A stretch of DNA of 64,000 bases, taken from Moniliophthora roreri. Taxonomy: Eukaryota; Basidiomycota; Agaricomycetes; Agaricales; Marasmiaceae. Shown one piece after another: positions 376 to 43,520 of the stretch (position 1 is the stretch's first letter; every line of letters starts with the position of its first letter). Under the pieces are notes generated by a model, which was not told the DNA's origin, searched no databases, and saw only the letters and a program-made list of their open reading frames with translations. Made by a program: the position numbers and the translations under genes. Location of the stretch: assembly GCA_001466705.2 (NCBI GenBank), contig LATX02000187.1:372001-436000 (forward strand). Direction: 5' to 3'.

Positions 376-2465
376 ATGAAGATACAATTCGAAGAGTTCG
401 ACCGGTATCTAGCTGGATACTCTGCCAAAAGTACTGTCATCTGCCCCTTCTATCTCAAATAATCTTGCTCAAATCACTGTAAAAGCTCCACCCAATGTCC
501 GGTCTACCGCCAGAGCGATGCTCGCTCGATTAACCATTTCTCAAGTCGCAGAACTGTCGATGGATGTTTACGACGAATTGATTCGGAGAAATGAGAATCA
601 AGGTGCGTATTGGATTGCACTACAGACTGAACAAAGTCTTCTCATTGAACATCTTCAGTTCCATTTCTTCCTGCGCAGCCCGAGTTCCATCATAAAAGAA
701 ATCAAGCCCGGCAGAAACTCGCAACCATGCCCAATTCTCGATTTGAAGATCTCTCCGGCGATATTCACTTTGAATTGGCTAGGCGGTATCCTGAACTCAA
801 GAAGGATGTGGTGGGTATTGTGGACGATGTTCCGGGAGTTCTGCCGTATGAAGTCGGAGCACATGTAACGGAAGACAGCGAGGGAGATACCAGTGAAACT
901 AAATCCGATGACTATGGGAAGGAAAACGACTTCTCCAGCCGTTTATCACCTACCAACACCTCGGAAGTCAGGAAACCCACATTTCCAGAGGGCAGCCTAG
1001 TACTGGACTTTGTGGACACCATCCTTCAGAACCGTGAGGAATACCAGGCGTTGTTAAAGGTTGATCAAACACAAGCACAATCCTTATTGGATCTCTTCCA
1101 AATCGTGAGTAACTTGCAATTGTCGACGCTCTGACTTGGGCATCGGGCTTATCTCCTGTATAGCTATCCCTCCGAACGGACCTTACAACTCGACTTCGTT
1201 CATCCATACTCAAGGCGATGCTCCGATTATCGAAGGCTTCTGGTCAATGCCCCAGTCTTCTCGCTATAAACGACTTCCAGAAAGATGGCGACAAACCTCT
1301 AGGTTCTGGAGGTTACTGCGACATTTGGAAAGGACGCCTAGGAACAGAAGTGGTCTGTCTCAAGTTAATGCGAGTTTATCGTGAATCGGATATCGACAAA
1401 ATAGTCAAGGTGCGTGTCATCTGGATTGAAACTATTACCAGCACCGACTCTGATCACTAGGACTCGATGCGTGAAGCGATCATATGGCGGCAGCTTGACC
1501 ATCCTAACCTGCTCCCGTTCCATGGGCTTTATCTTCAAGACCACAAGATTTGCTTAATCTCGCCCTGGGTGGCAAATGGCAGTCTTACTCACTTTCTGGA
1601 AGATTCAAAACGCGCGGGCTCGGTGGTGATTCATGAAACGCTGGTGTGTACCTATTAGTCTCCAATCCTTTTCCTCGTATATGCTGAGGCTCCCAGAACA
1701 CAGATATGGGATATCGCAAACGGTCTCAGTTACCTTCACGAAAGAAAGCTCGTCCATGCAGACCTAAAAGGCGTAAGTTGTCAACGCTTCGAACCAAGCC
1801 ATAGCAAGGTTGATCGTTTACTATTAGGATAACGTTCTCATCACATCGCATGGCAGAGCATGTATCGCTGATTTTGGTCTCTCTCGGCTCACGGACAGTC
1901 AAGTATTGGCAATGTCTTCAAACACAAGAACGCTAGCGGGGACACTAAGATGGACTGCGCCAGAAATCCTCATCAGCGAAGGTCGACACACATACCAGAG
2001 CGACGTTTATGCATTTGGTTGCGTATGTTATGAAGTATGTCCCTTACTAGCGACATGGTGCATGTCTCATGATGGCCGGGCTCGCAGATATACAGCGGAC
2101 TCCGCCCTTTCCACGACCTCAGGAGTGATGGAGCTGTCATTCTTCAGGTGCACCTCGGAAAGCGCCCTTCGAGACCCCGCAATGCAAAGCTGACGGACAA
2201 GATATGGTCGTTCATTGAAGCCTGTTGGGCTACTGACCCTTTGGATCGTCCGGAATCCGGTAGGCTGATGACCGTCTTCAAAGACACTTTGGAAGACATT
2301 GGTGAAATAGTACCCGCGCCAATATGGGACCAAGCTAGTCTTTGCGCAAATATTTGGTCAAAACTACGGGACCGAGGAGGCTCTCCTGACCAGATAGATG
2401 TGGCGGAGTATCTTTTCCAATCCGCTATCCGAGTCTGGGAGAAGCAACCAGGCTCTGAGTCATGA
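376..2465 (+). CDS. Spa2-homology-domain / TKL protein kinase fusion (kinase A)
   Basis: Eight exons join in phase: 376-430, 486-602, 659-1104, 1164-1409, 1461-1643, 1704-1772, 1828-2034 and 2088-2465, giving 566 residues. Residues 1 to about 105 match the Spa2/GIT1 homology domain. The first repeat has the ELSMDVYDELIRR core, and the second has FHHKRNQARQKLAT followed by RFEDLSGDIHFELARRYPE. In fungal Spa2 this domain binds MAPK-pathway kinases and polarity proteins. A helical module with LDFVDTILQNREEY and SLLDLFQIV follows, then a kinase domain from about residue 245. The kinase shows the glycine loop GSGGYCDIWKG (~253), a lysine in VCLKLM (273), HADLKG (367-372), DFG (387-389) and APE. 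HADLKG lacks the Arg of HRD (non-RD), but the catalytic Asp and metal-binding Asn remain. The start at 376 is the first ATG in frame with the domain. The fusion is seen in sequence; its role is unknown. Confidence 0.85.
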
Positions 2466-2849
2466 CACATGATTCCAGACCTGCAAGCGGGCCCCTCCGT
2501 GACGATGGCAAGCATGTATGCATGATTCATAAGATTGATCCCAAGGGTTTGACAAGGGGGTAATCGTTTACAGCACTGTATTAATTGCAACAGGATGTTC
2601 CAGATGCTCACACCACGAGCAAAGCCTACCATGTTTTTCATCAATAAAACAAGACAAATCATTTCGGTTGATTTCACGTTCCAATTTTCTTTCTTTAAAA
2701 ATGCAAATCCTTAATCGACTTGCTAATTATGCCATGACCCAGAAGCACGATACCAGCCGCGGACAATCCGATCAGAGCGACATGTATGTGTTTAGGTGTT
2801 AATTATCTTTCAGCTCCATCTTGGAAATCAACCCCCGCGTAGTCAACGC
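2466..2849. other. intergenic, convergent 3' ends
   Basis: This stretch lies between the 3' ends of kinase A (+) and the F-box gene (-). It holds no supported coding region. An AATAAA-like signal (caataaaac) near 2642 may serve kinase A polyadenylation. Confidence 0.4.
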
Positions 2850-7606: not shown

Positions 7607-10160
7607 ATGCGGGATCTACCGCTCAGAGAATCGTCCACGTCCCCACTCCAAGAACGGACAGTCCTGGTAAATGGGCCGCTTCTCAGAATTGCATCGACTT
7701 CCCATGACACTCCACCGACTATACATTCCCCTCGACCGATTACTCGCAATGATACGGCGGAGCAATTAAGATTAATAGAGGAGGAGGTGGAAATGTCAAA
7801 CGAGCTGTGCGGTAGATTGTTGGGCACGGTTCAACAGCAGCATTCAGCACAGATCGATAGGAGAGGTGAATGGCCTTTCACAAATCAAACACAACCCTCG
7901 GATCTGGTACACACGGCGCAAATATCATCGATGTCCCATGTTCCAGGATATCCGCTTCAGATGGACCATGAATATAGGCTGCTGTACGCCCAGCAAACCA
8001 GCGGGGACGATACTGAATCTTCGGCACCTTCCACTCCTAATTCACCCTTGTCCTATTTCACTTCGTGGGCTGATTGGGCTGAAAAGCGGGGCAAAGGATA
8101 CGGAGATCCCTTACCAGATAGTCAGAGATCGAGTCCTAGCCATGAGCCTGTCGAGCTCCCTCCGCTGCCACCAAGAATGCTCAGGAAGAAGAGGACAGAG
8201 AGACCCTGCCCTGTTTCTTCCAGAGAAACGAGCGCCGAGTCGGCCGATGACTCCGAAGTGGGAACTCGCTTCACTTCAAGTTCGTGGGCAGACTGGCATG
8301 AGAAGCGGAGTAAAGGGTATGGCCATCCCTTGCCAGATAGCCGGAGATCGAGTCCCAATCATGAACCTGTTGAACTTCCTCCACTACCGCAAAGATTAGC
8401 GCTCAGGACAAACAACAAGACAGAGACAGCCGGCCCCGTTTCCTCCAGAGGAACAGATGCCGGGTTGGCCATCGACTCTAGGTTAGGAGCAGAAAGACAT
8501 GAGCCGGATCGTTCGTTGAATGAAGGTGTTGGAATAGTTCTCGAATCTCATAGTCTTTCCACGAATCAATCTCATGCCCGCAACCAAACCAGTACTGCCT
8601 TTGGAGAAAGATATGCAGAAGAAGGCCACTGGATCGCCCGCTCGGTACCTGATTCGAATCCGCGCTACAGATTCACGATTCACTCACGCCATGTGAATTT
8701 TGCGAAGAGTACTTCGGCATTGGACATGATCAGGGCAATACTTAACGACCGCAATGAATACAAAGCATTACTCAAGGTACCTCAAACGCTAGCACGATCT
8801 CTTCTAGATCTCTTTCAAATTGTGAGTTTTTTGGGATGACATGTTCTTTATCCTATCATCAATGATATTAGGTTTCCCTTCGAACCGATGTCACGGCTCG
8901 ACTTCGTTCCTGCATCTTCAAGGCAATGCTCCGTTTGTCGAAAGCCTCCGGCCAATGTCCGAGTTTACTAGTTATCGACGATTTCCAGAAAGAAGGCGAC
9001 AAACCGTTTGCTTCCGGAGGATTCTGCGACATATGGAAAGGACATGTTGGGACGAAGCTGGTCTGCCTCAAGATAGTCAGAGTCTATCGAGACTCTGATA
9101 TGGAGAGGATAGTGAGGGTGTGTGCCAAATCTATCTCTTTCTCCCGATACCTACATCGAGCTTTTGTTACCAGGATTCAATGCGTGAAGCCATCATATGG
9201 CGACAACTGGATCATCCGAATGTACTACCCTTTCATGGTCTGTACCTTCAGGAGCATCGTATTTGCTTGATCTCGCCTTGGGCGGCGAATGGCAGTCTCA
9301 CCCATTATCTGGACAGTACAAATATCGAAGATGTGAACCACGAGACCCTTGTATGTGCTTCTAAAGTCAATTCTGCAATACATTTGATTGAGCAGTCAGA
9401 TAAGGTCTCGGATATTGCAAACGGTCTCGGATACCTCCACTCGAAAAAAATCGTACATGCAGACCTAAAAGGCGTGAGTTATTGCATATCTCAATTCCTC
9501 CATTCTGACTGGGCTCTGCGTGCAAAAGGATAACGTCCTCATCACGTCTCACGGTCGAGCGTGTATAGCTGACTTTGGTCTCTCTCGGCTTACAGACAGC
9601 CAAGTACTAGTGATGACTTCCACAAGAGCTCTAGCGGGTACACTACGATGGACTGCCCCTGAGATTCTCATTGGGGAGGGCCAACATACCTACCGGAGTG
9701 ACGTTTACGCCTTTGGCTGTGTTTGCTACGAAGTAGGCTCTTATTTATTCCGACTATATATTCCCGAGTACTGAGATATTACCATCAGATATACAGCCAC
9801 CTTCGCCCATTCCACGACCTTCGGAGTGATGGAGCCGTTATTCTACAGGTCCACCTAGGGAAACGGCCTTCCAGACCCGGTAACACGAAGCTTACGGATC
9901 GAATATGGTCGTTTATTGAGACTTGTTGGGCCACCAACCCTTTACAGCGTCCGGAGCCTGAATGGCTCATCCAAATGTTGGAGTGCGTGTTGGTGTTGGA
10001 AGGTAAGGATATACCACCCCCGGCACCGAACTGGGATCATGCAAGTCTAAGTGCCGGCATTTGGTCGAAACTACAACAGTGCAACTTTGATTGGACGGAT
10101 GCAGAAGACTATTTATGTCGATCGGCTTCACGAGCTTTTCAAATCAGCAGGAGAATGTAA
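7607..10160 (+). CDS. TKL protein kinase with long disordered N-terminus (kinase B)
   Basis: Exons 7607-8821, 8872-9117, 9174-9350, 9396-9473, 9529-9732 and 9789-10160 join in phase to 763 residues. Residues 1-360 are low-complexity and hold two copies of a ~40-residue repeat (about 150-190 and 224-263) built on SWADW, EKR, KGYG, PLPDS and EPVELPPLP. The shared helical module (NDRNEYKALL, ARSLLDLFQIV) follows, then the kinase: SGGFCDIWKG, VCLKIVRV, HADLKG, ADFGLSRL, WTAPEIL and DVYAFGCVCYE. The C-terminal tail carries ..PNWDHASLSAGIWSKL, found in all paralogues. HADLKG lacks the HRD arginine. An upstream ATG at 7510 exists, but its most obvious donor (7547) does not keep frame with 7607, so the true 5' end is open. 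Exon boundaries match kinase A exactly, showing recent common descent. Confidence 0.8.
8055..8400 (+). repeat. two-copy ~40-residue coding repeat in kinase B
   Basis: Two in-frame copies at about 8055-8180 and 8278-8400 share the words SWADW, EKR, KGYG, PLPDS, RSSP, HEPVELPPLP. The DNA is about 80% alike by eye. It lies in the disordered N-terminus and could be a short linear interaction module. Confidence 0.75.
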
Positions 10161-10851: not shown

Positions 10852-12763
10852 TCCCTCGGGATATGCCGAGATGGCCTCCAAAAAATGGCTCATGATTAAG
10901 CGAATTTGTCATGATCCGGGTGCACAACTTGGCCTCCTCCACAAAATGCCTCAGCAACGTCACTGTGCATCCAGAAAGCACCTCAACATAGCCTCAGCAT
11001 CTTGAAGACAGCAAAGTGCGCATGATCTCCACCTTGACGGTCTTACGCTGGAACTAGTCATCGATTCACCACTCGTAGGCCCCGTGCGGAAATTGGAACG
11101 GATCGATTGTACAAGTTGAGACCGGAACTATGTAGTCTACGCGCCTCTAGAATCTACGCCATGTCCAGGCATCGGAAGCAAAAAAAAAAAAGTTGTACGA
11201 TGTAACAGAGATAAGCGATAGCTTGTGAACGAAACCACCGTCTTACCCGCCCTTATAGAAGGTTCACGAATCTGGTTCGTGACACCGAATCGCGAAGCAA
11301 GCTTTAATAGCGTTCGAAGAAGAATGGCGGTATTTGAGAGCTCAAGGGTGAGTGGTCGAGTTGACTTAGGGACGGATCGATCACATTCGTACCTTGAAGC
11401 TTGATTCTCTTCAAGGGGGTAAAGCGACGATCAGGCTCCAGTTGGTAGTATTGTGAGTAGAGCTTGAGCACTGCAACGTCCGGATGAGCGACAATTTTTT
11501 GGTGAACAATTGGTTGGGTGGAATCTCAGAGAAGGAATGGGGATGACCATATTGATGAGACAATGGTGCTGGATTTAAGCTTGACATGGACCTAACATAA
11601 ATCTAGAGTATCGCGTTGACAAACCGAAGCAGCAGGAGGCGAAAACTGATGAGATGTAGCAATGAGCCCAGCGTACCCGTTCTGATTTAGTTGGTCCGTC
11701 ACGTTGGGATTGCAGAACTGACTCTCTCTGGGCTCATGGTACGATCTTTGTAACTGCAAGAGGGTTCCCTTGGGAGTTCTTGGTTTCCTCGCTGCTAGCA
11801 TCCTCGACGACGACGGCAAGGTGAATCGTGGGAAGCTCAGACAAAGCTTTTCATCTTCTTCCTCAAACTCGTTATGGTCTCTTCATCAGTAACCCCCCCC
11901 TCCATTCACATCGAATTCGCATTTTTCACACATTACTTGGTGTCGGCCGGAAACACAACTCAGCGAAGAAACGTAAAAGGCACTCCAACATGAGATTTTC
12001 TTCCCCAGCTATGGCGGGAGATGCAGTAGCAGGAAAAGATGGCTGAGCTCGTGAAAGAGGAACTGTAGATATGAGTGGAGAAGAAGAGGTAAGGCCGTAT
12101 ATTTCATGGAGTTGGAATGTGCATGAGCTCATCGTATCGTAACCAGTACACTGCTTTGGACATCCTAGGAAGGGTGTATCTTGATTCAGCAATGCATTCT
12201 TTCATTTAGAACATTTGAATGTTCCCTGAGAAGCACCGGACCACCCTGGATCGTACGAGTGTGAAGTATCGGGATTTTGGCATCCACCATGAGGCGAGCG
12301 ATTGATGAGCGGATGTACTCCAATGACTTGCGGTAGCACGGCTAGTTGGCAAAGACAGAATAGGGGGTGGTCATACTGCACCGGAGTAGGCTTCCTGCCT
12401 AAACTTTGGGGGGACTCATAGCTCCGAAACTCTAAGCGGCAACCCAAGGTGAGTTCTTTCCCGGCGAAAAAACTCAGTTTCTGATGCACATTACTGACAG
12501 GTTCAACGTTCGCACTCCCAACCTGCCCCCAAGCGCTCGCCACTCCCTGCCTTATTCGCGTTACCTTGTTCCGGCCGTCTTCTCTATACCCATACAAGAG
12601 AGGAGCACAGCTAAGGTTGCCCTTCTCATTGTCACACTCATCAAATCGGTCGAAAAGTGGTACCGAACAGGAAATATGGTTTGGCTAGCTGTACACATGA
12701 GATTAAAGCATTTAAAGACCTGGCGGTTCAGTCAGCTCAGTAGCTTTGATCGCCCCAGATAAC
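10852..12763. other. unassigned intergenic region
   Basis: About 1.9 kb between the metallothionein gene and DyP 1. It holds a run of 12 A near 11181 and a C-run near 11892. Open frames on both strands are short and unrecognised. The last ~100 bases are the DyP 1 promoter; the ten bases ccccagataa just before its ATG recur before DyP 2. Confidence 0.4.
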
Positions 12764-14698
12764 ATGTCTGCATCCCAAGGTACCCCAAAACTCTCACTCT
12801 TGCAACGACGCGCAATCATACCCCATCAGGCTCTCCTCGACGGAGAGCCGAAGAAAACAGCTGATGACGGTACTCCGTTACCCGATCTCAACAATGTTCA
12901 AGGCGACGTTTATTTCATGTTTCCAAAAGTAATATCGACTAGTTCTCTACTTTGACTTTACTGACACCTGTACATAGAGATGGCAACGATTCATGTTCTT
13001 CAAAATCACCAACTTGGCCCAGTTTCGGAAGGATCTTGATACTTATGCACCCAGGATCACCAGCTCCGCACAAACCGTGAAAGATCTTGACACAATAGAC
13101 AAGCAGGGAGGAGCTGGTCTTGACATCGTTTCGTCCGGGATTGCGTTTACAAAGGCCGGACTCAAGGCAATGGGTATTGAGGACCAGCTAAAGGAACCCC
13201 ATTTTGATCAGGGATCTCTGTTCAACGAGAAATCGCAACTCGGTGACATGCGCGAGTACGATTGCGTCTTCAACGGCGACGGAAGGAACGATGGTGTTAT
13301 TCTGCTCACCGCCGGAGGTACGTTAAGCTTTGTCCTGTTTTTATGACGTTCGCTGATAAAGTTTTCACTTGTAGAGCGAGACACGTGTACGACAAAAATG
13401 ACTGAGATCCGAACTATCTTCGAGAGTTCTGTCACTGTCTTGACCATTTATGAAGGCCGCGTCCGTCCAGGCGATGGCGAGCATTTTGGATGGAGAGACG
13501 GTATCTCCCAACCCGCTCTCAAGTATGTCGCGCCCATTTCATCTGTTTTTCCTCTCTCTCAACCGCCTATACAGGGACATCGGAGGCTCCAAGCCTGGCC
13601 AGCGTATTGTTAACCCGGGTGTTGTCATCATGGGGTACGCGGGTGATCCCGTCTACGACAATCAGGGTGCACGTCCTGGATTCACAAAGGATGGCTCTTT
13701 CATGGTGTTCCGCAAGCTCGAGCAGAATGTCCTCTTTCTCGAAGACTACGTCAACAAAAATTTCCAGTCCGTCCCAGCTGACGAACCAAAGGATGGTACC
13801 TATCTTACTGATGACCAGAGGAAGCAATTGTTCGCAGCCAGGATAGTCGGCCGTTTCAAATCAGTGAGCCACACTGTTAAAAAAAATTTCATTCGCTCGC
13901 GAATGTTTACTTGTTTTCGTAGGGCGTGCCGCTTGCCCTCAGTCCTTATCGAGAAGATACTAAATATCTGGACCCTGAGTTGATCAACAACTTCGACTAT
14001 ACGGAGACAAACGGTCGCTGTCCTTTTTCTGCTCATGTTCGTAAGACGGCTCCCAGGCAGCTACAACCAATCGTGAGCAAAGAATACCTTGATGCTTCGG
14101 TACTTGTCCGCGCGGGTATTCCTTATGGCGACGAGGTTTGCAACCAAAACTTTTCAAGTCGATTTCGCATTGACTAATTCTCCCTTTGTTCTCCCTTGCA
14201 GATTTCACCTCAAGAACGCGAAGACTGGAAGAAGCTCACCGACGAACAGAAGGAGAACGCCGTGTGCCCTCGTGGGCTTCTTTTCGTTTGCTACCAAGCC
14301 TCCATCGATAATGGATTCTTCCGTCAGCAGGCAGGCTTTGCCAACAACGACTTCTTCCCACTCACCGGCCTCGTACCTCAAAAGATTGGTTCGTCAAGCT
14401 CCTTATACAAACACGACACGAGAATCACTGATGTTATTTTGAAATAGGCCAAGATCCCATCCTCGGTGGACCGAAACCCGTCACCGGAACCACAGGCACC
14501 ACCGATATAACCAAAGATGGGGAGGTCATACTCGATCTCGTCAATAACAGTGGAGAGAAGTATGAGGTGGCCGGGATCGCAAAGAAAGTGGTTCCATCGG
14601 CGACGTCATATGTGCAAAAGTTCTTTGTTACCTCTCGTGGAGGAGATTATTACTTCGTGCCCAGCATCAGTACCGTGAAGAGTTGGGCCCAAGCTTAA
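12764..14698 (+). CDS. dye-decolorizing (DyP-type) heme peroxidase 1
   Basis: Seven exons join in phase: 12764-12928, 12978-13317, 13375-13522, 13575-13863, 13923-14135, 14202-14388 and 14448-14698, giving 530 residues. The DyP signature GxxDG appears as GWRDGISQPA, where the Asp is the acid-base catalyst. The proximal heme histidine is likely in CPFSAHVRKTAPR. CPRGLLFVCYQASIDNGFF and FANNDFFPLTG are the conserved C-terminal heme-pocket blocks. DyPs use H2O2 to oxidise dyes, phenolics and lignin-related compounds and are common in wood- and litter-decaying basidiomycetes. The protein opens MSASQGTPKLSLLQRRA and shows no signal peptide, unlike many secreted fungal DyPs, so it is intracellular or a 5' exon is missing. 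A close paralogue lies at 34193-36105. Confidence 0.92.
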
Positions 14699-15043
14699 GT
14701 AGAATCTTCCTCGTCAACGTGTACAATAATGATGTATCATTTAAACGGCCCAAACCGTTGTTCAGAAGAATTTGTAACTACATTACACAGCTCCACGACG
14801 TGATTTCCCGCATTGCAGTCCTTTTTCAGACAATCTCCTTGCGAGGTGCCCCTTCTGCTGACGTCGACACAGGAAGGCCTAAATTGAAAGCCGAGGATGC
14901 AACAAAAGGATATGACGAGGTCTATAAAGTAGTACATAGGCTTCACTCTGAGAAGATCACTTGCATACGCCATTTCAAAATACTAGGTAAGCAAAGAAAC
15001 ATTGATGTACCACAGACTAAGTAGCAACAGGAAAGCCAAGTAC
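14699..15043. other. intergenic, convergent 3' ends
   Basis: Between DyP 1 (+) and the second F-box gene (-). No gene, repeat or RNA was recognised. Confidence 0.4.
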
Positions 15044-19357: not shown

Positions 19358-20017
19358 TTACAGGCTAATGGGACCGACTTTGACGTTGCCAAGGTTCACA
19401 AGGCCGATATCGCGAGCTTCGATAGAACCCGTGGTGGCATCACCAGCATTGGCAAGGCCGACATTGGGAAGCTGTCTAGCGCTGATGGGACCGACTTTGA
19501 CGTTGCCAAGGTTCACAAGGCCGATATCGCGAGCTTCGATAGCACCCGTGGCGACATCACCAACGTTGGCAAGGCCGACATTGGGGAATTTGGGGAGAGA
19601 AGGTGCGCCTGGGAGCTCCCTGACATTTATGGGGCCTGTGCTGACATCGCCCACGTTGACGAGCCCGAGATTGGGGAGTTCAGGGAGAGGAAGTTTAGGG
19701 ATAGGGAGAGAAGATAGGCCGGGAAGCTGCCTGGCGCTAATAGGACCTGTAGTGACACCCCCGAGGTTGACAAGCCCGATGTTGGGGAGTTTAGGGAGAG
19801 AAGGGATGCCGGGAAGCTCCCTGACATTGACAGGTCCTGTGGCAACATCATCCAGGTTGGTGAGTCCAACTTTGGGAAGCTCAAGCTGTCTGGCGCTGAT
19901 AGCGCCCGCCTTGATGTCACCAACATTGACGAGGCCGATATTAGGTATGGGTGCAGCGTGGGTGGAAGCAGCGACGGTGGCAAGGACGTAGATAACGAGT
20001 TTGGTGAAGGAAGGCAT
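19358..20017 (-). CDS. secreted repeat protein (eight ~20-residue repeats)
   Basis: A single exon of 219 residues. Residues 1-22 form a signal peptide (basic start, hydrophobic VIYVLATVAA, cleavage near THAAP). Eight repeats then follow at about 26-45, 48-68, 79-98, 116-135, 146-164, 165-182, 184-202 and 203-219. Their pattern is NIGLVN(V/L)G(D/N)(V/I)xxGPIxARQL. The early repeats are separated by Pro/Leu spacers such as PGIPSLPKLP. The last repeat is cut off at VGPISL. There are no cysteines. Each unit carries a single Arg before Gln/Glu/Asp, but there are no dibasic Kex2 sites, so it is not a classical Kex2-processed repeat precursor. It may be a wall or surface protein, or a non-canonically processed peptide precursor. 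Function is unknown. Confidence 0.75.
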   Translation of the reverse strand: MPSFTKLVIYVLATVAASTHAAPIPNIGLVNVGDIKAGAISARQLELPKVGLTNLDDVATGPVNVRELPGIPSLPKLPNIGLVNLGGVTTGPISARQLPGLSSLPIPKLPLPELPNLGLVNVGDVSTGPINVRELPGAPSLPKFPNVGLANVGDVATGAIEARDIGLVNLGNVKVGPISARQLPNVGLANAGDATTGSIEARDIGLVNLGNVKVGPISL

Positions 20018-22028: not shown

Positions 22029-22253
22029 TTAATCTACATCGGGTACCACTTTGTCATCCGAGTCGGAGACTAGGTCCGCTGCTGAGCTAGACTCTACACT
22101 CTGTAGTTTGGCCAACTTGGCGCGGGAAGCCGATTCCTTCAGGTATTGTTCCGCGGCTGTCCAATCGAAGTCTCCTCGCCGTAACTTCGACCAAACACCG
22201 GCAGTTAAGCTAGTACTATCCCAATTTTGGGCCGGGGATGGCATATCCTCCCC
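22029..22253 (-). pseudogene. detached C-terminal tail of kinase C beyond an in-frame stop
   Basis: The frame of kinase C continues after a TGA at 22254-22256 and encodes the tail found in the other paralogues (PSPAQNWDSTSLTAGVWSKL and about 50 more residues, stop at 22029). Where kinase E has Gly after KDAL, this gene has TGA, so a single base change removes about 75 residues. It is translated only by readthrough. Confidence 0.7.
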
Positions 22254-25200: not shown

Positions 25201-25583
25201 AAAGAAGAAACTGGAGAGCAGATGACCCTCCCGCTGAGCTGTTTCTGCTATAGTTTGGGCGATCGCGGATTTGCCGGCACCTGCTGGGCCATACAGCCAG
25301 ACTATGCGATCCTCTGATGAGTGGCTATGGATCCAATCATTGATTATCTCCAAGACCTCGCGACGGGTGCCTGGATGACATTGGGGTGGCGGATAGCGCC
25401 CTCCCGAGTCATGGCTTGCCCCAACGTCCTTGACCGCCTCCGATAGAGATTGCAAAGCTTGGGAGGGTCAGGATTACTAACAGTCCGTTATGGGGGATGA
25501 AAGGACGCACGATCTAATGTATACGGGATATCACTGATGAATTGCCCACCACTCATCATGAAGTTACCGCGATCGGGGAACAT
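22254..25583 (-). CDS. NACHT NTPase - helical linker - TKL kinase fusion (kinase C)
   Basis: A multi-exon gene read as one chain. Exon 1 at 25583 encodes MFPDRGNFMMSGGQFI, the usual start of Agaricomycete NACHT proteins. It joins to LQSLSEAVKDVGASHDSG, then YPPPQCHPGTRREVLEIINDW, Walker A GPAGAGKSA, Walker B WLIVVDGLDEC and the sensor block LICSRPEPPIREAF. A C-terminal helical region, CTILSEAWESWGALCLDGNL onwards, is joined across an intron at about 24107-24053. The intron near 23840-23784 keeps phase 0 into KPQECTDIIARF and the helical module, then the kinase: SGGFCDIWKG, VCLKIVRV, HADLKG, DFGLSRL, WSAPEIL and DVYAFACVCYE. NACHT ATPases act as oligomerising switches; a kinase output at the C-terminus is inferred. 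A TGA at 22254 ends the protein about 75 residues before its paralogues. Confidence 0.8.
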
Positions 25584-28794: not shown

Positions 28795-29160
28795 ATGGAG
28801 CAACATCAACACCCGTCGAGTCCCATTTCGACGTCCAAGAGTGGGTTCGCTGCTGAACTAGACTCTGCACTCTGCGGTCTGAGCGACTTGACGCGGGATG
28901 TCGATTCCTTCAGATATTGTCCAGCCGCTGTCCAGTCAAAATCTTGTGGCCTCAATCTTTTTCAAATGTTTAGGACGTCGTGAAAGTTCGGTATCCCAAC
29001 AAGTTTCGGCAAATGACCAGACCTTAATCCGTGAGCTCGGAGTTAGCAAGTCTTGGAGGGCACTGTCCATGGCTGACGTTAATTACCAGAGCGCCATCGT
29101 TGGGAAGGTCGTGGAACGGACAGAGACGACTGTACACCTAATCGCGACGACTTCAGCAAA
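28795..29160 (-). pseudogene. remnant D: tail and last kinase exon of a NACHT-kinase copy
   Basis: On the minus strand this matches the last exon of gene C, from the IYSG..PFH region through the C-terminal tail, with frameshifts and a deletion of roughly 75 bp near 28962. The rest of the gene (kinase N-lobe, helical module, NACHT) is missing. The sequence passes straight into the 5' flank block at 29270, so about 3 kb of gene body has been lost. The plus-strand open frame over it is only the antisense shadow. Confidence 0.65.
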
Positions 29161-33231: not shown

Positions 33232-34192
33232 AGTGGTAGGAGCAGCCAATTGCTGGCATGGGTGGGGATGTAGAGCCCGTCCTTTTAAGGAGCTTTGGGC
33301 GTCTGTGTTCTGGAGCGAAGATAAATTCGGTGGATCTTCCATTCCAAGTGCCGAGTGGCTGAACGTTCCAAGATTCTGCTGAAGCACTTGACCATTGGAT
33401 AGAAAGGGTTTTGTGACACTTTCTGAGAGGTGCGGTTCACACAGTTTGATCCATCCAATTGAGGATAGTCATCCCTACATCGCATGAGTGCCTTGTGCTA
33501 CGATTTTTGGCATATTCACGCACCATGAGGCCAAATTTTGACGTGCCGATGTATTGAAGCTATAACCTGTGACAGCAAAATGCGCGCATTTTGAAGGCGA
33601 TGGGCAGGAAGGAGGAAACGAACAGTCGTTATCTAAGCGCTAGCCTCGGGTCACGCGTTCCGTTCTTGATCTGATGCTCACAGCACTGAAGCAAGCTATC
33701 TCCACCTCCTCTTCCTTCCATGGGGAAGCTTCAAAGAGCTATATGCGAAAGACAAGTTACAATTTTAGGTGACTATTTTAGGCTTGAGTAGTAAAGCCAC
33801 GCTGCTTGACGGGCTTCAGTCCCCACAGGCACATGTTCCTGACAGGTTGAATATTCAGTGGCACCGCACACTGACTGCACACCACTTTCCGGCGCTGAAC
33901 ATGTTCCAGGAATCTATACGGATCTCTGGTCCAATGACTGGTGCTGTTGCACTCAGAAGCACCATGTTTTTCTCTCGTCAATGTAGCCTGTCTTACTGGG
34001 GATTTCTGCGGTGTTCTCATACAATCGAGTGGGGGCGCTCAGCCAACAGCTGACATCCCTTTACTGTCACCCTCTTGGCAAATCAAACCAGTTAACGAGC
34101 TGGACCGAATATAGCATACGATCTCGTCCCGTTGGCATGCATCTGACCACTGTATTTAAGGAAGTTCATTAGCCTTTCTCTCCCCAGATAAC
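33232..34192. other. divergent promoter region between the oxidoreductase fusion and DyP 2
   Basis: About 960 bases between divergent genes, both of which encode likely H2O2-linked redox enzymes (producer and user). Open frames inside are short and unsupported. The bases just before the DyP 2 ATG (ccccagataac) repeat those before DyP 1. Confidence 0.45.
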
Positions 34193-36105
34193 ATGTCTGC
34201 ATTCCAGGGCGCCCCAAAACTCAGACTTCTGCAACGGCGTGCAATCGTGCCTCATCAAACTCTCCTCTATGGAGAGCACATGAAAGCAGCCGATGACGGT
34301 ACTCCGTTACCCGATCTCAACAATGTTCAAGGCGACGTCTACTTCATGTTTCCAAAGGTAAATTTGGTAGTTTCTGCTCTTACTTTATTGATGCATGTGT
34401 GCAGAGATGGCAGCGATTTATGTTCTTCAAAATCACCAACGCAGCCCAGTTTCAGAAGGATCTCGATACCTATACTCCTCGGATTACCAGCTCTGCGCAG
34501 ACTGTGAAAGACCTCGATAAGATCGACAAGGAGGGAGGCTCTGGCCTTGACATCATTTCATCTGGGATTGCGTTTACAAAGTCCGGACTCAAGGCGATGG
34601 GTATCAAGAAACACCTGAAGGAGCCCCATTTCGATCAAGGGTCGCTATTCAACGAAAAAGCAAAACTTGGTGACCAGGGTCAGTACGATAGCGTCTTTGA
34701 TGGCGATGGTAAAAACGATGGCGTTATTCTACTGACCGCGGGAGGTATGTTCGACTTCGTGCAGTGGTCCGGTTGCGCTTGCTAATATCCTCGCCCGTAG
34801 AGAAAGACACGTGCAAGACCAAAATGGATGAGATCCAAGCTATCTTCAAGAACTCTGTCAATGTTGTGACCACTTACGAAGGCCGTGTGCGTTCAGGCGA
34901 TGGCGAGCACTTCGGATGGAGAGATGGTATTTCCCAGCCTGCTCTCAAGCACGTCGTCTCCGTCCCATTTCATGCTTCTCTCTTCTCAAACTTTTTTACA
35001 GAGGTATTGGGCACTCCAAGCCTGGTCAACGTATTGTGAACCCGGGTGTTGTCATCTTGGGATATCCCGGCGATCCCGTTTACGACAACAAAGATGCAGT
35101 AGCGCGTCCTGACTTCACAAAGGACGGCTCTTTCATGGTTTTCCGCAAACTCGAGCAGAACGTACTCTTCCTTGAAGACTACGTTAACAAAAACTGGCAG
35201 TCTATTCCAGCTGACGAACCAAAGGATGGTACATATCTTACTAATGACCAGAGGAAGAACTTGTTCGCAGCGAGGATGGTTGGCCGTTTCAAGTCGGTGT
35301 GTCACTCTGCAAAAATTTCTCGCTTGAGTATGCTGAACGTGATCACAGGGTGTACCACTTGCACTCTCTCCTTACATTGAAGATCCTGCCTATCTGGATC
35401 CGGGGCTAATCAATAACTTCGACTATACAGAGCCAGATGGTCGTTGTCCCTTTGCTGCTCACGTTCGTAAGACGGCCCCCAGGAACCTACAACCGGTCGT
35501 GAGCAGAGAATACCTTGATGCTTCTGTACTTGTTCGTGCTGGCATTCCCTATGGTGAAGAGGTTCGCAACCAAATTTTCAATTCTGACGTTGATTAAGTT
35601 CACCCTAACAGATCTCGGGCCAAGAACGCGAAGACTGGAAGAAGCTCACCGACGACCAGAAGGAGAACGCCGTGTGCCCTCGTGGACTGCTCTTTGTCTG
35701 TTACCAGGCCTCCATCGACAATGGATTTTTCCGTCAGACAACGCTCTTTGGTAACAATGACTTCTTCCCCCTCACAGGTCTCGTGCCTCAAAAGATCGGT
35801 TTGTGAAGTATCATACGAACGCATGGCAAGAATACTGATGCTTGGGTATAGGACAGGATCCAATTATTGGTGGGCCAAAACCAGTCTCTGGAACCACAGG
35901 AACAACCGATCTGTCTAAAGAAGGGGAGGTTACACTTCAGCTTATCAATAACAATGACGAGAAGTATGAGGTGGCTGGGATCGCGAAGAAAGTGGTCCAA
36001 TCGGCGACATCGTTTGAGCAGAAGTTCTTTGTCACCTCTCGTGGAGGAGATTATTACTTCGTTCCCAGCATCAGTACTGTGAAGAGTTGGGGCGCTGCTG
36101 CATAG
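34193..36105 (+). CDS. dye-decolorizing (DyP-type) heme peroxidase 2
   Basis: A close paralogue of DyP 1, with the same seven-exon plan and intron positions; exon 1 is 34193-34357. It encodes the GxxDG motif as GWRDGISQPALK, the heme histidine block CPFAAHVRKTAPR and the C-terminal CPRGLLFVCYQASIDNGFF. It differs by a two-residue insertion (near KDAVARP) and an Ala-rich end (WGAAA). The third intron appears to use a GC donor: DyP 1 has AA|GTATGT, while here the same site reads AA|GCACGT at 34949, and only that join keeps frame with KGIGHSKPGQRIVNPG. No signal peptide is visible. It may use H2O2 from the divergent GMC enzyme, which is inference from position only. Confidence 0.9.
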
Positions 36106-37138
36106 GCGAGAGCAACATAGAGCCTCTATTTGGCCTCCATATCCCCATTTTCCTCTCCTGAATCCACATATACGATACAATCTATCATTTGAACGACCTT
36201 TATTCAGACAAACTGTAACCTCATTACTCAATTCACAACGTTAGCTTGAATGACTACAGTGCCCTCTTTCGACTCAGAAAGAGAGGCTTCTTGCCTAGCT
36301 GGACACTACAAGCCGGAATAACAGAATGCTTAGTTGTGGCCTATTTCTGCGATCGCGTCTCGTACCGTAGTGGTGGAAGTCTGAAAATTTCTCTCTGTGA
36401 TGTCTGTTCCCCGCGTTCCCAGCCTTGCTAGCCACGCCAATGACATGCAAGTCTTCACCCTCCTTCGACTCGGGATATCGTTGAGCCAATTCGAAACATC
36501 AATTCTTGGGGATCAACTCGTCGGGAATGTGGATGGGCTTAATACCTTCTTGGATGATAAGCTTCAAATTGAACGAGGGGAGAGATGGGTTCTAATATTT
36601 AGTTTCAATTTCGAGTTCCCTTGTAAAATACAGATCGTTTCTCGTTCGAGTCCTCCCTGCGAGCTAGTCCTAGACTGCAAGCCTTCAACAGTCCTGGACC
36701 GTCGTCCATGACTATTACTTGAACATGTCCGAGAGGAGGCTCGTGAAGTTTCACAGAAATGGGGAAGCAAGTAGTCGAAGGGTTCCCCGTTCCACGACTG
36801 GGTACACGAAAGAGTAAGTCGAAGCACTTGACCACCCGGCGGAATACTGGCGTCACGAGTCAAGGTATGCAGAATCTAAGACTATTATCATTTTTACACA
36901 ATACATACTATCCAGCAGAGTGATCGTCCTATTGATGTGCCCCTCATTCTGTGCTCAAATAACATGGGCGCAGCCATCGGCCGATGTCGCTCATTCTAAT
37001 TTCACGGAACCGGAATCCCGAATCTTTCTGTAGTAGACATTTTCGAGGAAAGACGCATTATTGCTGGTTTGTCAAGACCGTTTACAGGTCAATTCTGGCA
37101 CAGCCTTGCCATAGCCATGACTGTAAAAGTAAAACTGG
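36106..37138. other. unassigned intergenic region
   Basis: About 1 kb between DyP 2 and the end of kinase E. Minus-strand open frames at 36564-36863 overlap in two frames and could be pieces of a small decayed gene, but no family is recognised. Confidence 0.35.
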
Positions 37139-37993
37139 TCAGGATGTGGAACGCGGTATCAAGATCTGAGCACGAACTGTGATCTGCTGGGTAGCTTCCA
37201 GAAGGTCACCATCACTTTGTCGAAGGGCCATGATGGCTGCTTCCTTGCTGCAAGCGAACAGCCTCATCATAGTTTTAACGTCTCCCGGGTTAACGCCAGT
37301 CTCATGCAGCTCTGAAGCGGCAATGACTATACAAAACTGGTCAACGAAATAGAAAGTGACGTTCAAGCCTGAGTACAAACTAGCTTGGTTTATATCTCCT
37401 GGGTCAACGCCAGAGTCATGGAATTCTGACGCAGCCACGACTGTACGAAAGTGGTTAGCAAGATAAGATACTATGTCAAAGTCTGGTCACCTACTAGCCT
37501 TAACAAGATTACCACCACTCGCTCGAATGAACTTGACGGCCGTTTCTCTGCTACATTGGACTCGAGCCAGGACACGGTCAATATCTCCCATATAAACGCC
37601 AGCCGCATCGGACTCTGATGCGGCCATGACTAAAAATTGAACTCGTAAGTAGGGTAGAACGCGATAAAATATGAGCACATACTGGCCATACTGGGATTAC
37701 CATACACTCGAAGAATGTGAATGGCCTTTCCTCTGCTACATTTGACCTGAGTCATGACGAGGTCAACGTCTCTTGGGTCAACACCAGTGTCATTGGACTC
37801 TGACTCAACCACAGTGACTATCCAGAACCTGTCAACGAAACGGGACGCTATGTCAAAGTCCGAGCACGTACTAGCGTCAATGAGTGCACCACCACACTCC
37901 CGAAGGGCCTCGATGGCTCTTGCTCTGCTGCAATCGACCTTGGTCATGACAAGTTGAACGTCCGTTGGATGAACGCCAGTCTCGTGGAGAGCG
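37139..37993 (-). repeat. tandem exon array encoding five NAC-alpha-like UBA domains
   Basis: UBA1 lies in the end of a longer exon (to 37872). UBA2 is 37817-37683, UBA3 37629-37495, UBA4 37440-37381 and UBA5 37326-37139. Exons 2 and 3 are both exactly 135 nt, exon 4 is 60 nt (a 75-nt in-frame loss), and the introns are 53-54 nt. All splice in the same phase (after GCT A or GCC A, entering at TC). The unit of exon plus intron is about 189 bp, showing tandem duplication of a symmetric exon. Confidence 0.85.
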
Positions 37994-39755
37994 TTTTCAT
38001 CTTCATCCGGTATCTGGGAATCTGAGATGGATTCAAGGGGGATGGGATCACCGGTGGGAAGCAGCAAAGCCGGCAGTTGCACAGCCAATGGTTGAGTTGT
38101 TGAGTTCGTGTCTTCAAGATGTTTCACGCCAACTCGCATAGCCGACCGCTCTAGGTACCCTTCCACGTCCTTCCAGTCGTATATGTCTTGCCGCAACTTT
38201 GACCAAATATTAGCGGAAAGACTGGCTTGATCCCAGTCTGGTGCTGGAGATGGTACAGCCTTTCCCCCTAGCGCGTCTTTCAACTCATTCCCGAGGTGAG
38301 CAGACAGAGGACGGCGCGAAGGTTCGGAATCCCAGCACCGCTCGATAAACGACCATATGCTATCTTTAAGCTCCGCATTTTCGGGTCTTATAGGTCGTTT
38401 TCCAAGGTGAACATGAAGGATTACGGCGCCATCGTTCCGAAGGTCATGAAATGGGAGATGATGACTGTACACCTAATAGTGGTAGCTTAGCATAGGTGTA
38501 ATGACTGTCAGAATTACTGTATGTATACCTCATAACATACGCAGCCAAATGCGTAAATATCGCTCTGGTAAGTGTTGACTCCCACTGATGAGGATTTCCG
38601 GTGCGGTCCATCGAACGGTACCCGCAGTAACGCCCGTTGATGAGATAGCTAATATTTGGCTATCTACAAGTCTGGAGAGACCAAAATCAGCAATACATGC
38701 TCTGCCATGTGACGTTATCAGAATGTTATCCTGAGCAGAAACAAGTCAGATAAACTGAGCTATCACAGACAGTTCAGACTTACACCCTTTAGGTCTGCAT
38801 GCACAATTTTGCGCTCATGAAGATGAGAAAGACCACTCGCAATATCCCAAACCTAACCACTAGAATGATAAGTGACATATCTTGTAACAGAGTGACAAAC
38901 GTACCAGAGTTTCGTATTCGACTGAACTATACGAATCTCTGAGGAATTGGGTCAGACTGCCGCCCGCCATCCACGGTGAAATCAAACAAATCCTAGACCC
39001 TTGACGGTATAAACCATGAAACGGTAGCAAGTTCGGATGATCAAGTTGCCGCCATATGATTGCTTCTCGCATAGATTCCTATCGAAGCAGGTTAGTTCCA
39101 TTCTGAATAGTCAGTTTCGCTCATACCTTTAATATTTTCTTGATGTCCGAATCACGGTACACCCTTACTATCTTCAGACAGACCGCTTCTGTGCCTACCC
39201 GTCCTTTCCAAATATCACAGAATCCTCCCGAAGCTACAGGTTCGCCGCCATCCTTCTCAAAGCCATCTACAGCGAGTAAGGATGGACAAAGGCCGGAACA
39301 TTTCGACAAGCGAAGCATAGCCTTGAGTATGGAGGCACGGCGGCGGGGTGTGAGATCTGCTCGGAGAGATAGCTGCGAAATGTATGTCAGTGTCAACCAG
39401 TGACGCGAACGATACTGCAACTCACAATCTGAAAAAGATCCAACAGGGACTGGGCCAGAGTTGCCTCTACGTTGAGCAACGCTTGGTATTCTTCACGATC
39501 CTGAAGAATATCGTCCACGAAGTCAAGTACTCGCATGCTCTCTACGAACTGAGGCACCTCATCTGCTATTCTCCCCACAGCACCTCCAGGAGTCGTGTGG
39601 TTGTAGAGGTCGACATCGACAAGCATATCGTCCATAAAACCTTGGGTCAGCGTGGTCGTTACAGATAGAGTTCCCTCGCCTGCCATCTCAGTGTCCCCAC
39701 TCCTCCCACAGCTATTAATCTCTTCCATGGCTGTCGATTCGAACTGTTCATTCAT
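37139..39755 (-). CDS. TKL protein kinase with C-terminal array of NAC-alpha-type UBA domains (kinase E)
   Basis: A paralogue of kinases A-C with a short N-terminus (from ATG 39755) and the helical module (VLDFVDDILQDREEYQALL). The kinase shows SGGFCDIWKG, VCLKIVRV, HADLKG, DFGLSRL and TAPEIL. The C-terminal tail is followed by UBA1 and then four further exons. Each exon encodes a UBA domain like the one at the end of NAC-alpha: (E/D)TGVxPxDVxLVMxxVxCSRxxAIxxLRxxGG. Domain 4 lacks 25 residues in frame. The stop is at 37139. One serious flaw exists: between TAPEILISG and the DIYAFGCVCYE block, two bases are missing near 38561 compared with paralogues, which shifts the frame and gives an early stop. 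All downstream exons remain open and conserved, so this is a recent pseudogene, a sequencing error or a case of unusual splicing. Confidence 0.75.
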
Positions 39756-39949: not shown

Positions 39950-40330
39950 CAGTCCCATACAATACAGTATTGATAGTGAAAAACTGACCTGGGATAGCAA
40001 ATTCGATTGTAATGCAAACAAGAGCATGATGCAGAATCTCTCACGGTCTCGACGTTGTGAAATTTCCACTCGATAAGTTTGCATTTTCGCGCTTGTTTTT
40101 GTACATGTAGATTACCCGATCGATATGTGTTTCTGATGCGACCAATTACTGCCTGAGTTTCATCCACAAAGACGCTCGTGTACAAGTGCAACATACAATC
40201 CCTGATGGCAGCAAGAGTTGCTAGTCGCGAATTTTGCTCGCCCATGAAGGCACTAGCTAGGCAAATAAGTTATCTGGAGCGATGTTAATCGACATCAAGG
40301 GCAGAAAGGCCTGCAGATTGTGATAGAACG
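39950..40330. repeat. duplicated flank block, copy 3 (3' of decayed copy F)
   Basis: A partial third copy of the block at 21160-22028 and 27955-28790. Matching words include tctcgacgttgtg and cactagctaggca, ending in the gcgatgttaatcgacatc that precedes the kinase tail. Confidence 0.55.
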
Positions 40331-43300
40331 CAGAGGCTACCACTGCCAGACTACACCGCACTCTGCCGTTGTTTGTCCTGAACTCGTGAAGGTCAGATAC
40401 TGTTCCGCATCTCTCCAATCACAATCTTTTTGCCGCAATTTCGCCCATATATTGGTATATAGACGACTTCGATCCCAATTCGGCGCCGGAAGTGGTATAT
40501 CGTTTCCTTCTAATGCACCTTCCAGCGTCTTGATGAGCTGATCAGATCTGGGACGTCAAGAAGGCTCAGAGGCCCAGCAGGTTTCGATGAACAGCCACAT
40601 CTTATCTGTCAGCTTCTCATTAACAGGTCTCGCTGGTCGGTTCCCCAAGTAAATCTGGAGAATGACAGCGCCATCATTGCGAGCTCATGGAAGGGGTGGA
40701 GACGACTGTACACCTGATAGCGTATATCAACACAAGCACAAGAATATACACTTGTGCCGGGGGCCTACCTCACAACACACACAGCCAAAAGCACATATGT
40801 CGCTGTGGTAAGTGTATTGAGATCCAGTTCGGAGAACTTCCGGTGCAGTCCAGCGGTGTATACCGCTGATACGGCTTTTGAAGAAGGCATTGCCAAGACG
40901 AGATAATCCAAAATCAGTCATACACGGTCTGTCATGTAACATGATAAGGATACTGTCCTTGTGAAGATGAAGCATAATAATTACCGTAAACTAATACTCG
41001 GAAATCACGCAACGCTTACACCTTCAAGTCCGCATGCACAATCTTCCGCTCGTGAAGGTGTGAAAAACCACTAACGATATCCCAAACCTGAGACTCGATG
41101 ATTAGTGATGTTCAGCGATACATAAACGCATGCACCGGATCTTCGTGGTTTAGTGTAGGATCACTTGATTCTCGCAGGAAGTGGGTAAGAGTACCTTTCT
41201 CCAACCATGGAGGAACTAAGCGGATTCTATGCCCCTGACGATATAGTGCATGGAAAGGTAACAGATTGGGATGGTCAAGTTGACGCCATATGATTGCTTC
41301 GCGCATTACCAGGAACCTCCTGGAAATGGAGAGTCGGTTTCTGGCTAGATCGAGATGTCTGACCACGCACCTTCAGCACTTCAATGCTCGATATCAAGAT
41401 ACCGGTAGGCTCTGACTATCTTCACGCAGACCAATTCTGCTCCAACACGTCCCTTCCAGATATCGCGGAACCCACCCGAAGCAAAAGGCTTATCGTCTTC
41501 TTGAAAGTCGCCAATAGCCGGTAAACTTGGAGACTGGCCGGAAGCCTTGGATAATCAAAACATTGCCCTGAGTATCAACGAGCGAAGTTGGGGAGTACGA
41601 TCAGCCCAAAGGGAGAGCTGTAAAAAAGGCGATAAGCTTCAACGATGATCTGAATGTATGTCATACCGCTCACAAGCTGGAAGAGATCTAACAGAGACTG
41701 GGCCAGGGGTTGGTGGGTTTCCAGCAGTGCCTTGGATTCGCCGCGATCGTAAAGGATCTTGCCCACAAAGTCTAGTACCAAGGTTACTCTCTGTGAGTTT
41801 GGGCGCCTCAACTATCTTCCCAGTAACTTCTTCTGCAATCCCATGTTCGGTTCCGTCTCCAGAATCAAGAAAACTACTATATCTCGGAACCCCAACGCCA
41901 CCAACACTTCCTAAAGTTTGGTATAGTTCCACAGCGGAAATGTCTGGTCGTAACACAAGTGCAGCAAACACCCTTCTGCAATCTGAGAAGCAGCGTATTA
42001 TGTCGGTGGAGTTCTACCTGGTAGGAGTATCACTGATATTGCCTTCAAGTCCCGGAATTTACCAACCTACCTGTGAGCGCGACAGTAGAAGCTCAACTTG
42101 TGAAAAGAGATGCCGTATTTTTACCCAAAACAGTTGCAACGCTGGGTTTCACTTTCCGGATACGCAATCCAGGATTGCCTGTAAAATCCACATTTCGGAG
42201 GACCGGCGAACATCATATCATCAAGGTTTCCATTCAAGCATAGTGTTCCCTAGGATTCCCGTGTTTCGGATAAAATGGAGCACCTGCGTTGAGAACAGTC
42301 AGCCCATGCTATTCCACCCAATTACAGAAGAATACACTGTGCTGGGATCAACAAACTTTCATTGCCATCGCAAACTTGAGAGTAATGATTGATTCCGCGG
42401 AGGAACCGACATGTCAGGAGGCTATACTGAGCCCTTTTGTCTCCCACAAAGAAGTAACCGGACCGTTTTTCATCACTGAGAAAGTTATCGAATGATGTAT
42501 GAAGGGTGTGGATGTAGTCGTCAGGGCCACCAATGTCGAGAGTTGGATGGAGTCCTCGTAAGGTTGTGATGTCATCACATTCACCTAGGACTAGCAATGC
42601 TTCAATATGCCGCAGCGTCCCCAAAATGCTGACTCGCGCCGGCGTGGCCGATAATGCTGATAGAACCCGGATGACTTCCCGCACTCTCGAACGCTAAGAA
42701 TTGGACGAGAGGATCTGATGATAAAGCACGTCGAGATCGTGAAAAGACTCAGGATCTGGATAATATTCGGGGTTGAGCACGAGCTCCAGCTGGTTGCACG
42801 GATTGGTGCCCTCGTTGTCTATGAATTTGGTAACGGTAACAGCACAGATGAACTGTCCGGATGTCTTTTGCGCGATCTTGTCGACAAGACCAGGTGCAGG
42901 TCATGGAATTGGAAATTGGATGTGAAGATCCCGGGGACTCGCGCATATCTGTTTGAATTCATTATTCAAAAGATCGCGATGTGGTGGCCTGGGTCGAACG
43001 TGTCGTCTAGCGCAATGCGACGCAAAAGTCGACAAAAGACCTCAGTATGAAAGGCTTCCCTGATTGACGGCTCAGGTCGGCTGCATACAAGGAAACACAA
43101 CCGTATGCTTGCATAAGAGTCGTCGTTGCCTTCGCAATGATGAAAAGGATAGATTGCTGTTCCCAACTAGGGTTGCGGCTTCCACTACACTCGTCTAGGC
43201 CATCAACGACTCTTCGTCAAGCGAAGCCTGCAGAATAGCGGGGTTCCTCCGAATTGCCTGCCCAATTGGCTCTTGCAAATCCGGTATGGAGACCGCGAAA

Positions 43301-43520
43301 CCAAATGCATTTGTCAGGAATATAGAGTAGTAGCGTTCCTCTTGGCGTCCGACCGCGAGAAGAAAAGGCTAGAAACCAAGTAGCCCTCGTGCTGACGTGT
43401 TTCTGCTACGGATCCAATCATGAATGACGTTTGAAACCCATTGGCGAGTGCTTGGACGACATTTGAGAGGTGGGTATCGTGTTCTGAGTTATGACTCGCT
43501 CCAACATCTTTGAGAGTATG
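40331..43520 (-). pseudogene. decayed NACHT-kinase copy F
   Basis: It is collinear with gene C on the same strand, but broken many times. Pieces still readable are REAIIWRQLDHPNLLPFH (41112-41366), DFGLSRL with WTAPEVL and CAFGCVCCEV (40727-40975), the helical piece PDISAVELYQTL (41639-41971) and NACHT pieces CFLVCSRPEPSIREAFH (42966-43166) and IHTLHTSFDNFLSDEKRSG (42322-42684). Two deletions are informative. Near 43409 about 75 bp are gone, removing exactly the Walker A P-loop. Near 43210 about 85 bp are gone, removing part of Walker B and what follows. It cannot encode a working NACHT ATPase. Confidence 0.8.

Follow-up and report, generated by a model that had tools for sequence, protein, structure and literature searches.

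The window analysed here is a stretch of 64 000 nucleotides from the genome of Moniliophthora roreri (59.4 Mb, 154 contigs), an agaric of the Marasmiaceae and a cacao pathogen, and corresponds to positions 372001–436000 of contig C89. It holds a cluster of kinase genes in which one core, a short helical module followed by a protein kinase, is joined to varying partner domains: a Spa2-homology domain (SHD) in kinase A, a NACHT ATPase in kinases C and F, and a UBA array in kinase E. The SHD and UBA partners were copied as genomic DNA from the single-copy housekeeping genes Spa2 and NAC-alpha, as shown by parental introns kept at the same sites. Tentatively, and with rather less than even confidence, we read the cluster as one kinase family with varied, partly host-copied partners, which would be integrated baits or sensors signalling through the kinase. 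Sensing is what we infer for the partners; a role in localization is about as likely.

The loci were found by six-frame self-comparison of the window and with a gene finder trained on the M. roreri genome. An initial annotation of the window had described five kinases with one core, each joined to a different partner. All five loci (A, B, C, E and the decayed F) lie where they had been placed and have the helical module, the protein kinase and the exon boundaries in common. Between any two of kinases A, B, C and E the core is 67–74% identical, the exon order is the same by eye, and all four match the Pfam family PK_Tyr_Ser-Thr (E = 1e-42, 4.7e-44, 1.3e-41 and 5e-31, respectively). The SHD, NACHT and UBA partners were recovered by Pfam, but C and F have the same partner, and to that extent the description did not hold. 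Duplication and decay, also proposed there, are evident from a sixth copy (D; 28833–29137, reverse strand), which is a relic of the kinase C-lobe only and is spread over three frames, from the pieces and internal stops of F and from a frame break in E. That the partners are copies of single-copy housekeeping genes goes beyond that annotation.

Kinase A (307–2465, forward strand) is an SHD-helical-kinase gene modelled with the gene finder, the start and the first join being set by hand from the comparison with Spa2 (exons 307–430, 486–602, 659–1104, 1164–1409, 1461–1643, 1704–1772, 1828–2022 and 2088–2465). Its start probably lies upstream of position 376, at about 307. The SHD (391–804, forward strand) consists of two GIT_SHD repeats (Pfam E = 2.3e-23) with two introns at Spa2 sites. 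The helical module (997–1274, forward strand), delimited with the aid of a structural model of the relative P0003, is split by one intron (1105–1163). Exon 659–1104 is a single open frame that encodes both the second SHD repeat and the first half of the helical module. The only other match to the SHD exon in the genome (C94:38665–38808, 77% over the exon) is the M. roreri Spa2 gene (P0147). Both SHD introns agree with those of Spa2 in codon and phase, and the intron letters are still similar. The SHD of A is 70% identical to that of its own Spa2; Spa2 of M. roreri, by comparison, shares 99% identity with Spa2 of Paramarasmius, 84% with that of Agaricus and 82% with that of a polypore.

Kinase E (37139–39635, reverse strand; deposited as P0002 from strain MCA 2997) is a helical-kinase gene with a C-terminal array of five NAC-alpha-type UBA units (37190–38034, reverse strand; HYPK/NAC type, Pfam E = 1.7e-21). 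The open frame 37633–38472 contains the kinase C-lobe and the first UBA unit together. The sole other match to the E UBA in the genome is at C91:989683 (51%), a locus that codes for NAC and UBA domains and was identified on this basis as NAC-alpha. The NAC-alpha intron at the UBA end is kept at its site in the three E units that were compared and is followed by the same short last exon minus the stop codon; an exon–intron–exon unit of NAC-alpha was thus copied and then multiplied to five. Silent divergence is smaller between the E units and NAC-alpha (dS 0.34–1.04, which codon bias in NAC-alpha could have lowered) than among the kinase cores (dS 1.6 to saturation), which tentatively suggests that the UBA capture followed the kinase split. 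The ratio of nonsynonymous to synonymous change (omega), calculated by a counting method without a significance test on 38–39 UBA codons, is 0.41–1.08 for six pairs of units and 0.43–1.10 for four units against NAC-alpha. The units are less constrained than the cores of the four kinases A, B, C and E, which are under purifying selection: omega is 0.09–0.15 in four of their six pairs, dS being saturated in the other two. Diversifying selection on the UBA array was considered and rejected: one pair of units reaches 1.08, but the six pairs span 0.41–1.08. The frame of E breaks within its kinase, somewhere from about 38604 to 38544; an assembly error is an unlikely cause, because P0002, from a second strain, reads the same out-of-frame stretch.

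Kinase C (22029–25556, reverse strand; gene finder and Pfam) is a NACHT-helical-kinase gene. Its NACHT domain lies in the open frame 24067–25467 with a P-loop at 25267–25296 (NPHP3_N, E = 7.3e-28; NACHT, E = 1.4e-8), the helical module runs from 23548 down and the glycine loop is at 23220–23246. No NACHT match was found by Pfam in A, B or E. The deposited version, P0001 (WG66_002148), ends short of the kinase end and matches C over most of its length. The fusion joint is the open frame 23426–23794 (reverse strand), which holds the part following the NACHT exon and the start of the helical module. The first part of this frame may be the tail of the NACHT region: by eye it resembles the sequence downstream of a related NACHT (locus L024 on C23), and there is a weak tblastn piece (E = 0.043). 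Kinase F (40379–43544, reverse strand) is a decayed NACHT-helical-kinase copy. Its similarity to C is confined to pieces spread over three frames and interrupted by internal stops, some of which may be intronic, and a GxxxxGK[ST] P-loop, present in C, is absent from all three of its frames. One 300-base block of C and F is 81% identical in DNA. Recent twinning of the two was rejected, as the F NACHT is 66% identical to that of C over the half that still aligns, hardly nearer than the best other NACHT domains (63–65%). By eye, C and F have the stretch between NACHT and helical module in common, which suggests that the NACHT-kinase fusion predates their split. The NACHT of C is one of a large family: by similarity to it, 102 stretches of the genome match, and Pfam recognizes 83 NACHT stretches; they lie on C89, C74, C73, C45 and other contigs and make up a large NLR-like repertoire. 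Kinase B (7607–10160, forward strand; deposited as P0006) has a long N-terminal part ahead of the helical module (from 8717) and the kinase. No non-kinase Pfam domain was found in it; two copies of a repeat without a Pfam match stand 73 residues apart (SWADW at 8060 and 8279).

The joins of A, C and E each lie inside one open frame that is used as a single exon by our own gene models, and the deposited models use the joining frame in the same way for C and E. Separate genes or misassembly are rejected at the DNA level for these three loci, given the single open frames, the partners that are second copies and, for E, the recurrence in a second strain. The initial annotation had named misassembly, with pairings confined to this locus, among the things that would overturn it. 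This is contradicted by proteins of strain MCA 2997 with UBA, ATG11 and WD40 pairings (P0002, P0015 and P0018), and SHD-kinases occur in Paramarasmius (P0027) and Collybiopsis luxurians (P0239).

The pattern of one core with many partners, drawn originally from the window, reaches across the M. roreri genome and into related species. The exon with the helical module and glycine loop has 23 genome matches, the weakest few being to the kinase part only, and 11 of them fall in genes with a recognized partner. Besides A, C, F and E, these comprise two ATG11 claws in one kinase gene (C102:391614), WD40 (C117), RhoGEF and PH (C77), RhoGEF (C100:1015560) and DUF6699 (C102:421515, a weak match to the kinase part only). 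For two genes whose own models end early, the partner is known from deposited proteins with the same core: RhoGEF/PH/CNH in P0008 for C141 and PH/CNH in P0068 for C100:986894. Five other matches (B, a tandem pair on C89, C99:444813 and C74) gave no non-kinase Pfam domain when scanned. The gene at C75:10241 ends in repeats and scores weakly for VWA over the whole protein (25.5 bits, cut-off 23.8), with no single stretch passing. Four matches have no gene model over them and two were left unscanned.

Further parents are visible in the same genome. The ATG11 claw matches one gene on C128 and the two copies in the kinase gene on C102 and nothing else, and both claws have an intron after the AFN residues in common with ATG11. 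The WD40 partner of the C117 kinase has one close gene (C1:2415586–2416288, 78–85%), all other matches being at 40% or less. Spa2, NAC-alpha, ATG11 and a WD40 gene are parents within one genome; an extra domain derived from another host protein is one feature of integrated-domain receptors. A cDNA retro-copy as the partner source was excluded for the SHD, the UBA and the ATG11 claw, all of which keep parental introns.

Relatives were collected with two kinase-core searches, taking all 44 matches of one and the best 120 of 355 of the other, which gave 144 different proteins. Partner labels were assigned by hand from Pfam lists, with kinase-like Pfam families excluded and RhoGEF, PH and CNH lumped; M. 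roreri itself is among the species counted, and the gene models are those deposited. By name, and as an uncounted impression, the listed proteins come mostly from Marasmius, Moniliophthora, Paramarasmius, Tetrapyrgos, Dendrothele and other agarics. A non-kinase Pfam partner, of 22 kinds in all, is present in 69 of the 144 listed relatives. VHS (18) and RhoGEF/PH/CNH (17) are the most frequent, followed by YTH (five), WD40 (four), NACHT and Kelch-SH3 (three each), and USP7, PX-PH-RhoGAP and a fungal transcription factor (two each). Single cases are homeodomain, Sin3 PAH, WW, ARID, EST1, Gti1/Pac2, cyanovirin, AIG1-like GTPase, G-alpha, SHD, UBA, ATG11 and SH3. Eight relatives were rescanned and the listed partner was borne out in each. 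Several partner domains are near-complete (G-alpha 2–333 of 333, PAH 1–45 of 45 and YTH 1–134 of 135). As a yardstick, any extra Pfam domain was counted by eye in eight of 118 kinase-free Spa2-type proteins, and an obvious merged neighbour in four. The NACHT-kinase order occurs both ways, with NACHT first in C and P0142 and the kinase first in P0095.

The kinase tree was built with FastTree from 146 of 163 sequences; the program warned of long branches meeting. Omitted were P0001, as a copy of C, and sequences with fewer than 250 profile columns or a matched span of more than 700 residues. On this tree 23 partner labels need 29 changes, above the minimum of 22 yet far below the average of 49 for shuffled labels (none of 200 shuffles was as low); the partners are therefore partly inherited and partly exchanged. 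Even among the close kinases of the window clade the partner is SHD, NACHT, UBA or none. For VHS at least five changes are forced by starred branches, and for the lumped label RhoGEF/PH/CNH at least nine. The SHD-kinases A, Paramarasmius P0027 and Collybiopsis P0239 (the last 44% filled) fall in three separate kinase clades, so that SHD needs at least three changes, all forced by starred branches. The SHD tree was calculated from A and 33 of 120 rows of the Spa2 search (the two other SHD-kinases and 31 hand-chosen Spa2-type rows). The three kinase-borne SHDs came together in none of 200 bootstrap trees; a single clade was not rejected by the approximately unbiased (AU) test on this short alignment (p = 0.428), in which the SHD of A sits on a long branch (1.11; median 0.08). 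The kinase tree speaks against a single origin of all SHD-kinases, which the short SHD alignment, however, has no power to reject. The SHD may possibly have been captured once and exchanged afterwards.

The kinases themselves look active. All six catalytic residues (K, E, HxD, N, DFG) are kept in 136 of 146 aligned family kinases and in 70 of the 74 with a partner; they are present in A and C and, in the deposited form, in B (P0006) and E (P0002). The profile match starts inside the helical module (at or before column 25 of 397) in 151 of 163 sequences, and an extra part of more than 100 residues is N-terminal in 42, C-terminal in 106 and on both sides in five of these 163. In the AlphaFold model of P0003, four confident helices (residues 228–290) precede a standard kinase. 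No Pfam match was found for the helical module in A, B, C or E, and no HeLo or MLKL family was found there; both PDB comparisons run for the module were filled by kinase matches and so bear on the kinase, not on the helices.

No description of a kinase family that captures housekeeping domains was found in the open-licence PMC papers searched. FslK is a fungi-specific kinase lineage close to tyrosine kinases (PMC3937382), and a TKL expansion is known in Laccaria bicolor (PMC2838846). Like these, the present family is expanded in Agaricomycetes and its kinases are apparently active. The FslK survey reports extra domains in 16 of 241 members, against 69 of 144 here, and the present family was compared with it by features rather than by a place on the FslK tree. 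Window kinases read GKRP by eye where FslK has GxRP (PMC3937382). Sequence matches of P0003 in the PDB are mostly tyrosine kinases (EGFR, ITK, BMX, Eph and Lck), with the TKL kinase CTR1 a little lower.

Integrated decoys have been proposed for plant tandem kinases and kinase fusion proteins such as Lr9, Sr43 and Pm13 (PMC10260399, PMC10951266). There, too, a kinase is joined to unrelated domains that are proposed to sense effectors while the kinase signals; the plant examples are single resistance genes, whereas here one fungal family, known from sequence alone, shows many partner changes with visible parents and introns. Plant NLRs with integrated domains (NLR-IDs) are similar in that host domains have joined one core repeatedly and the same domains recur in several lineages (PMC4759884), but their core is NB-ARC and kinases are among the integrated domains, whereas here the core is the kinase and NACHT is a partner. 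The likeness to NLRs drawn in the initial annotation is apt twice over: NACHT is among the partners, and the integrated-domain receptor offers the closest logic. Fungal NLRs with kinase domains are known, including a PKinase N-terminal annotation (PMC4986451; also PMC10197012), and likewise combine NACHT and kinase in one protein; in C and P0142, however, the kinase follows NACHT (it comes first in P0095), and NACHT is found in only three of the 144 listed relatives. In C the kinase is at the C-terminal end and no WD40, ANK or TPR match was found by Pfam; C lacks the superstructure-forming repeats of fungal NLRs and is also a NACHT protein without C-terminal repeats. HELL-kinase proteins are known in fungi (PMC12881547), and MLKL-type proteins carry a helical death domain directly before a kinase or pseudokinase. 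The present module is short (four helices, about 63 residues in the P0003 model), and the kinases look active. In kind, the closest systems are the plant kinase fusion proteins and NLR-IDs; by descent, the present kinases form an agaric TKL/FslK-like family.

Further members and features were observed in passing. Two tandem family kinases, the second with a divergent core, lie about 59 kb upstream of the window (L002, C89:305500–315499). Another family kinase (L014, C75:6500–16499) ends in three repeats of about 50 residues; the repeat unit is also found on C36, C74 and elsewhere on C75, so that this partner has several genome relatives, unlike SHD or UBA. P0142 (Marasmius tenuissimus, 1711 residues) has NACHT followed by two kinase stretches, the first degenerate by eye, in a tandem-kinase layout. 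Within the window, two DyP-type peroxidase-like genes lie between kinases (12716–15021 and 34160–36158; the second was scanned with Pfam) and are 80–86% identical in DNA blocks. A predicted protein at 19358–20017 has a signal-like start by eye, imperfect GLVNxGDVxTGPISAR-like repeats and a 117-base tandem repeat. A terpene-type group (47072–56940) comprises a polyprenyl synthetase-like gene, a terpene synthase piece (52919–53693) and two paralogous P450-like genes, the second of which was scanned; adjoining it (59086–63635) are a DUF1295-type gene, an EF-hand protein and an ERG4/ERG24-type sterol reductase. A plasmid DNA search with the window gave no match, Rfam nothing at gathering scores and ARAGORN (bacterial code) no tRNA.

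On the bait reading, a foreign or misplaced factor would bind or alter the partner, since the parent protein of the partner is its usual target. This event would release or cluster the kinase through the helical module, with phosphorylation as the output; the switch in C would be its NACHT ATPase. We lean towards a bait because the same kinds of hub domain were taken repeatedly, NACHT among them, because the SHD of A has moved much faster than Spa2 and because the UBA array, weakly constrained, has multiplied. Beyond this, the family may have a role in immunity or non-self recognition. In its widest form, which we consider rather unlikely as a whole, these would be surveillance receptors of mushrooms built on a kinase instead of an NLR, capturing copies of hub proteins as integrated decoys for non-self recognition or defence and converging with plant kinase fusion proteins and NLR-IDs; the captured hubs would then be polarisome, nascent-chain, autophagy, Rho, endosome, G-alpha and RNA-reader components. 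Several observations weigh against a bait. The kinase of E has a frame break, and its UBA units show weak constraint and not positive selection, a result that led us to rate the sensor slightly lower and localization slightly higher. The SHD of A is under purifying selection (omega 0.10 and 0.25), which suits a working address equally with a bait. The YTH, Kelch and USP7 labels need one change only on the kinase tree, so these fusions may be stable and inherited. The omega values come from 33–49 SHD codons and 38–39 UBA codons, in both cases by a counting method without a significance test.

It is quite possible, if short of probable, that the partner is instead an address, which takes the kinase to the polarisome, the ribosome exit site, the autophagosome or Rho or endosome sites, and that the family represents lineage-specific rewiring of signalling. 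Scaffold, adaptor and regulator domains are numerous among the partners (SHD, UBA, ATG11 claw, VHS, RhoGEF-PH and PX), the kinase residues are kept, the SHD of A is constrained, and YTH, Kelch and USP7 each have one origin across several species, all of which an address would explain. It fits less well with the breadth of the partner set, which changes even inside the tight window clade, with the weak constraint on the UBA units and with NACHT, whose known role is not addressing and one of whose two window carriers is decaying.

We regard as improbable that these are passenger fusions, in which a frequently duplicating kinase family picks up ectopic DNA and most fusions are without function. 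Frame breaks, a relic and stops are indeed present, the captured pieces carry introns as random genomic copies would, and the UBA units are weakly constrained; this explanation is weakened, however, by the retention of catalysis (all tested residues in 70 of 74 partnered kinases, and the low omega of the window cores) and by the near-completeness of several partner domains, and fusions are found in 69 of 144 kinases against eight of 118 Spa2-type proteins. Merging of separate genes by annotation or assembly is very improbable as a general account: automated models do merge neighbours (a short-chain dehydrogenase domain is attached in four of the 118 Spa2-type proteins) and partners in other species are known from deposited models only, but three window joins lie inside single open frames, the tested partners in the M. 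roreri genome are second copies and not the parent gene itself, and the UBA, ATG11 and WD40 pairings recur in strain MCA 2997 proteins.

If the partners are sensors, the captured domains would form a map of the cell machines that are attacked or contested in mushrooms, as has been proposed for plants, and the family would provide candidates for non-self recognition outside NLRs, about which, to our knowledge, little is known in basidiomycetes. If they are addresses only, signalling would have been rewired in this family through genomic copies of parts of hub genes, and the parents and their introns are still visible.

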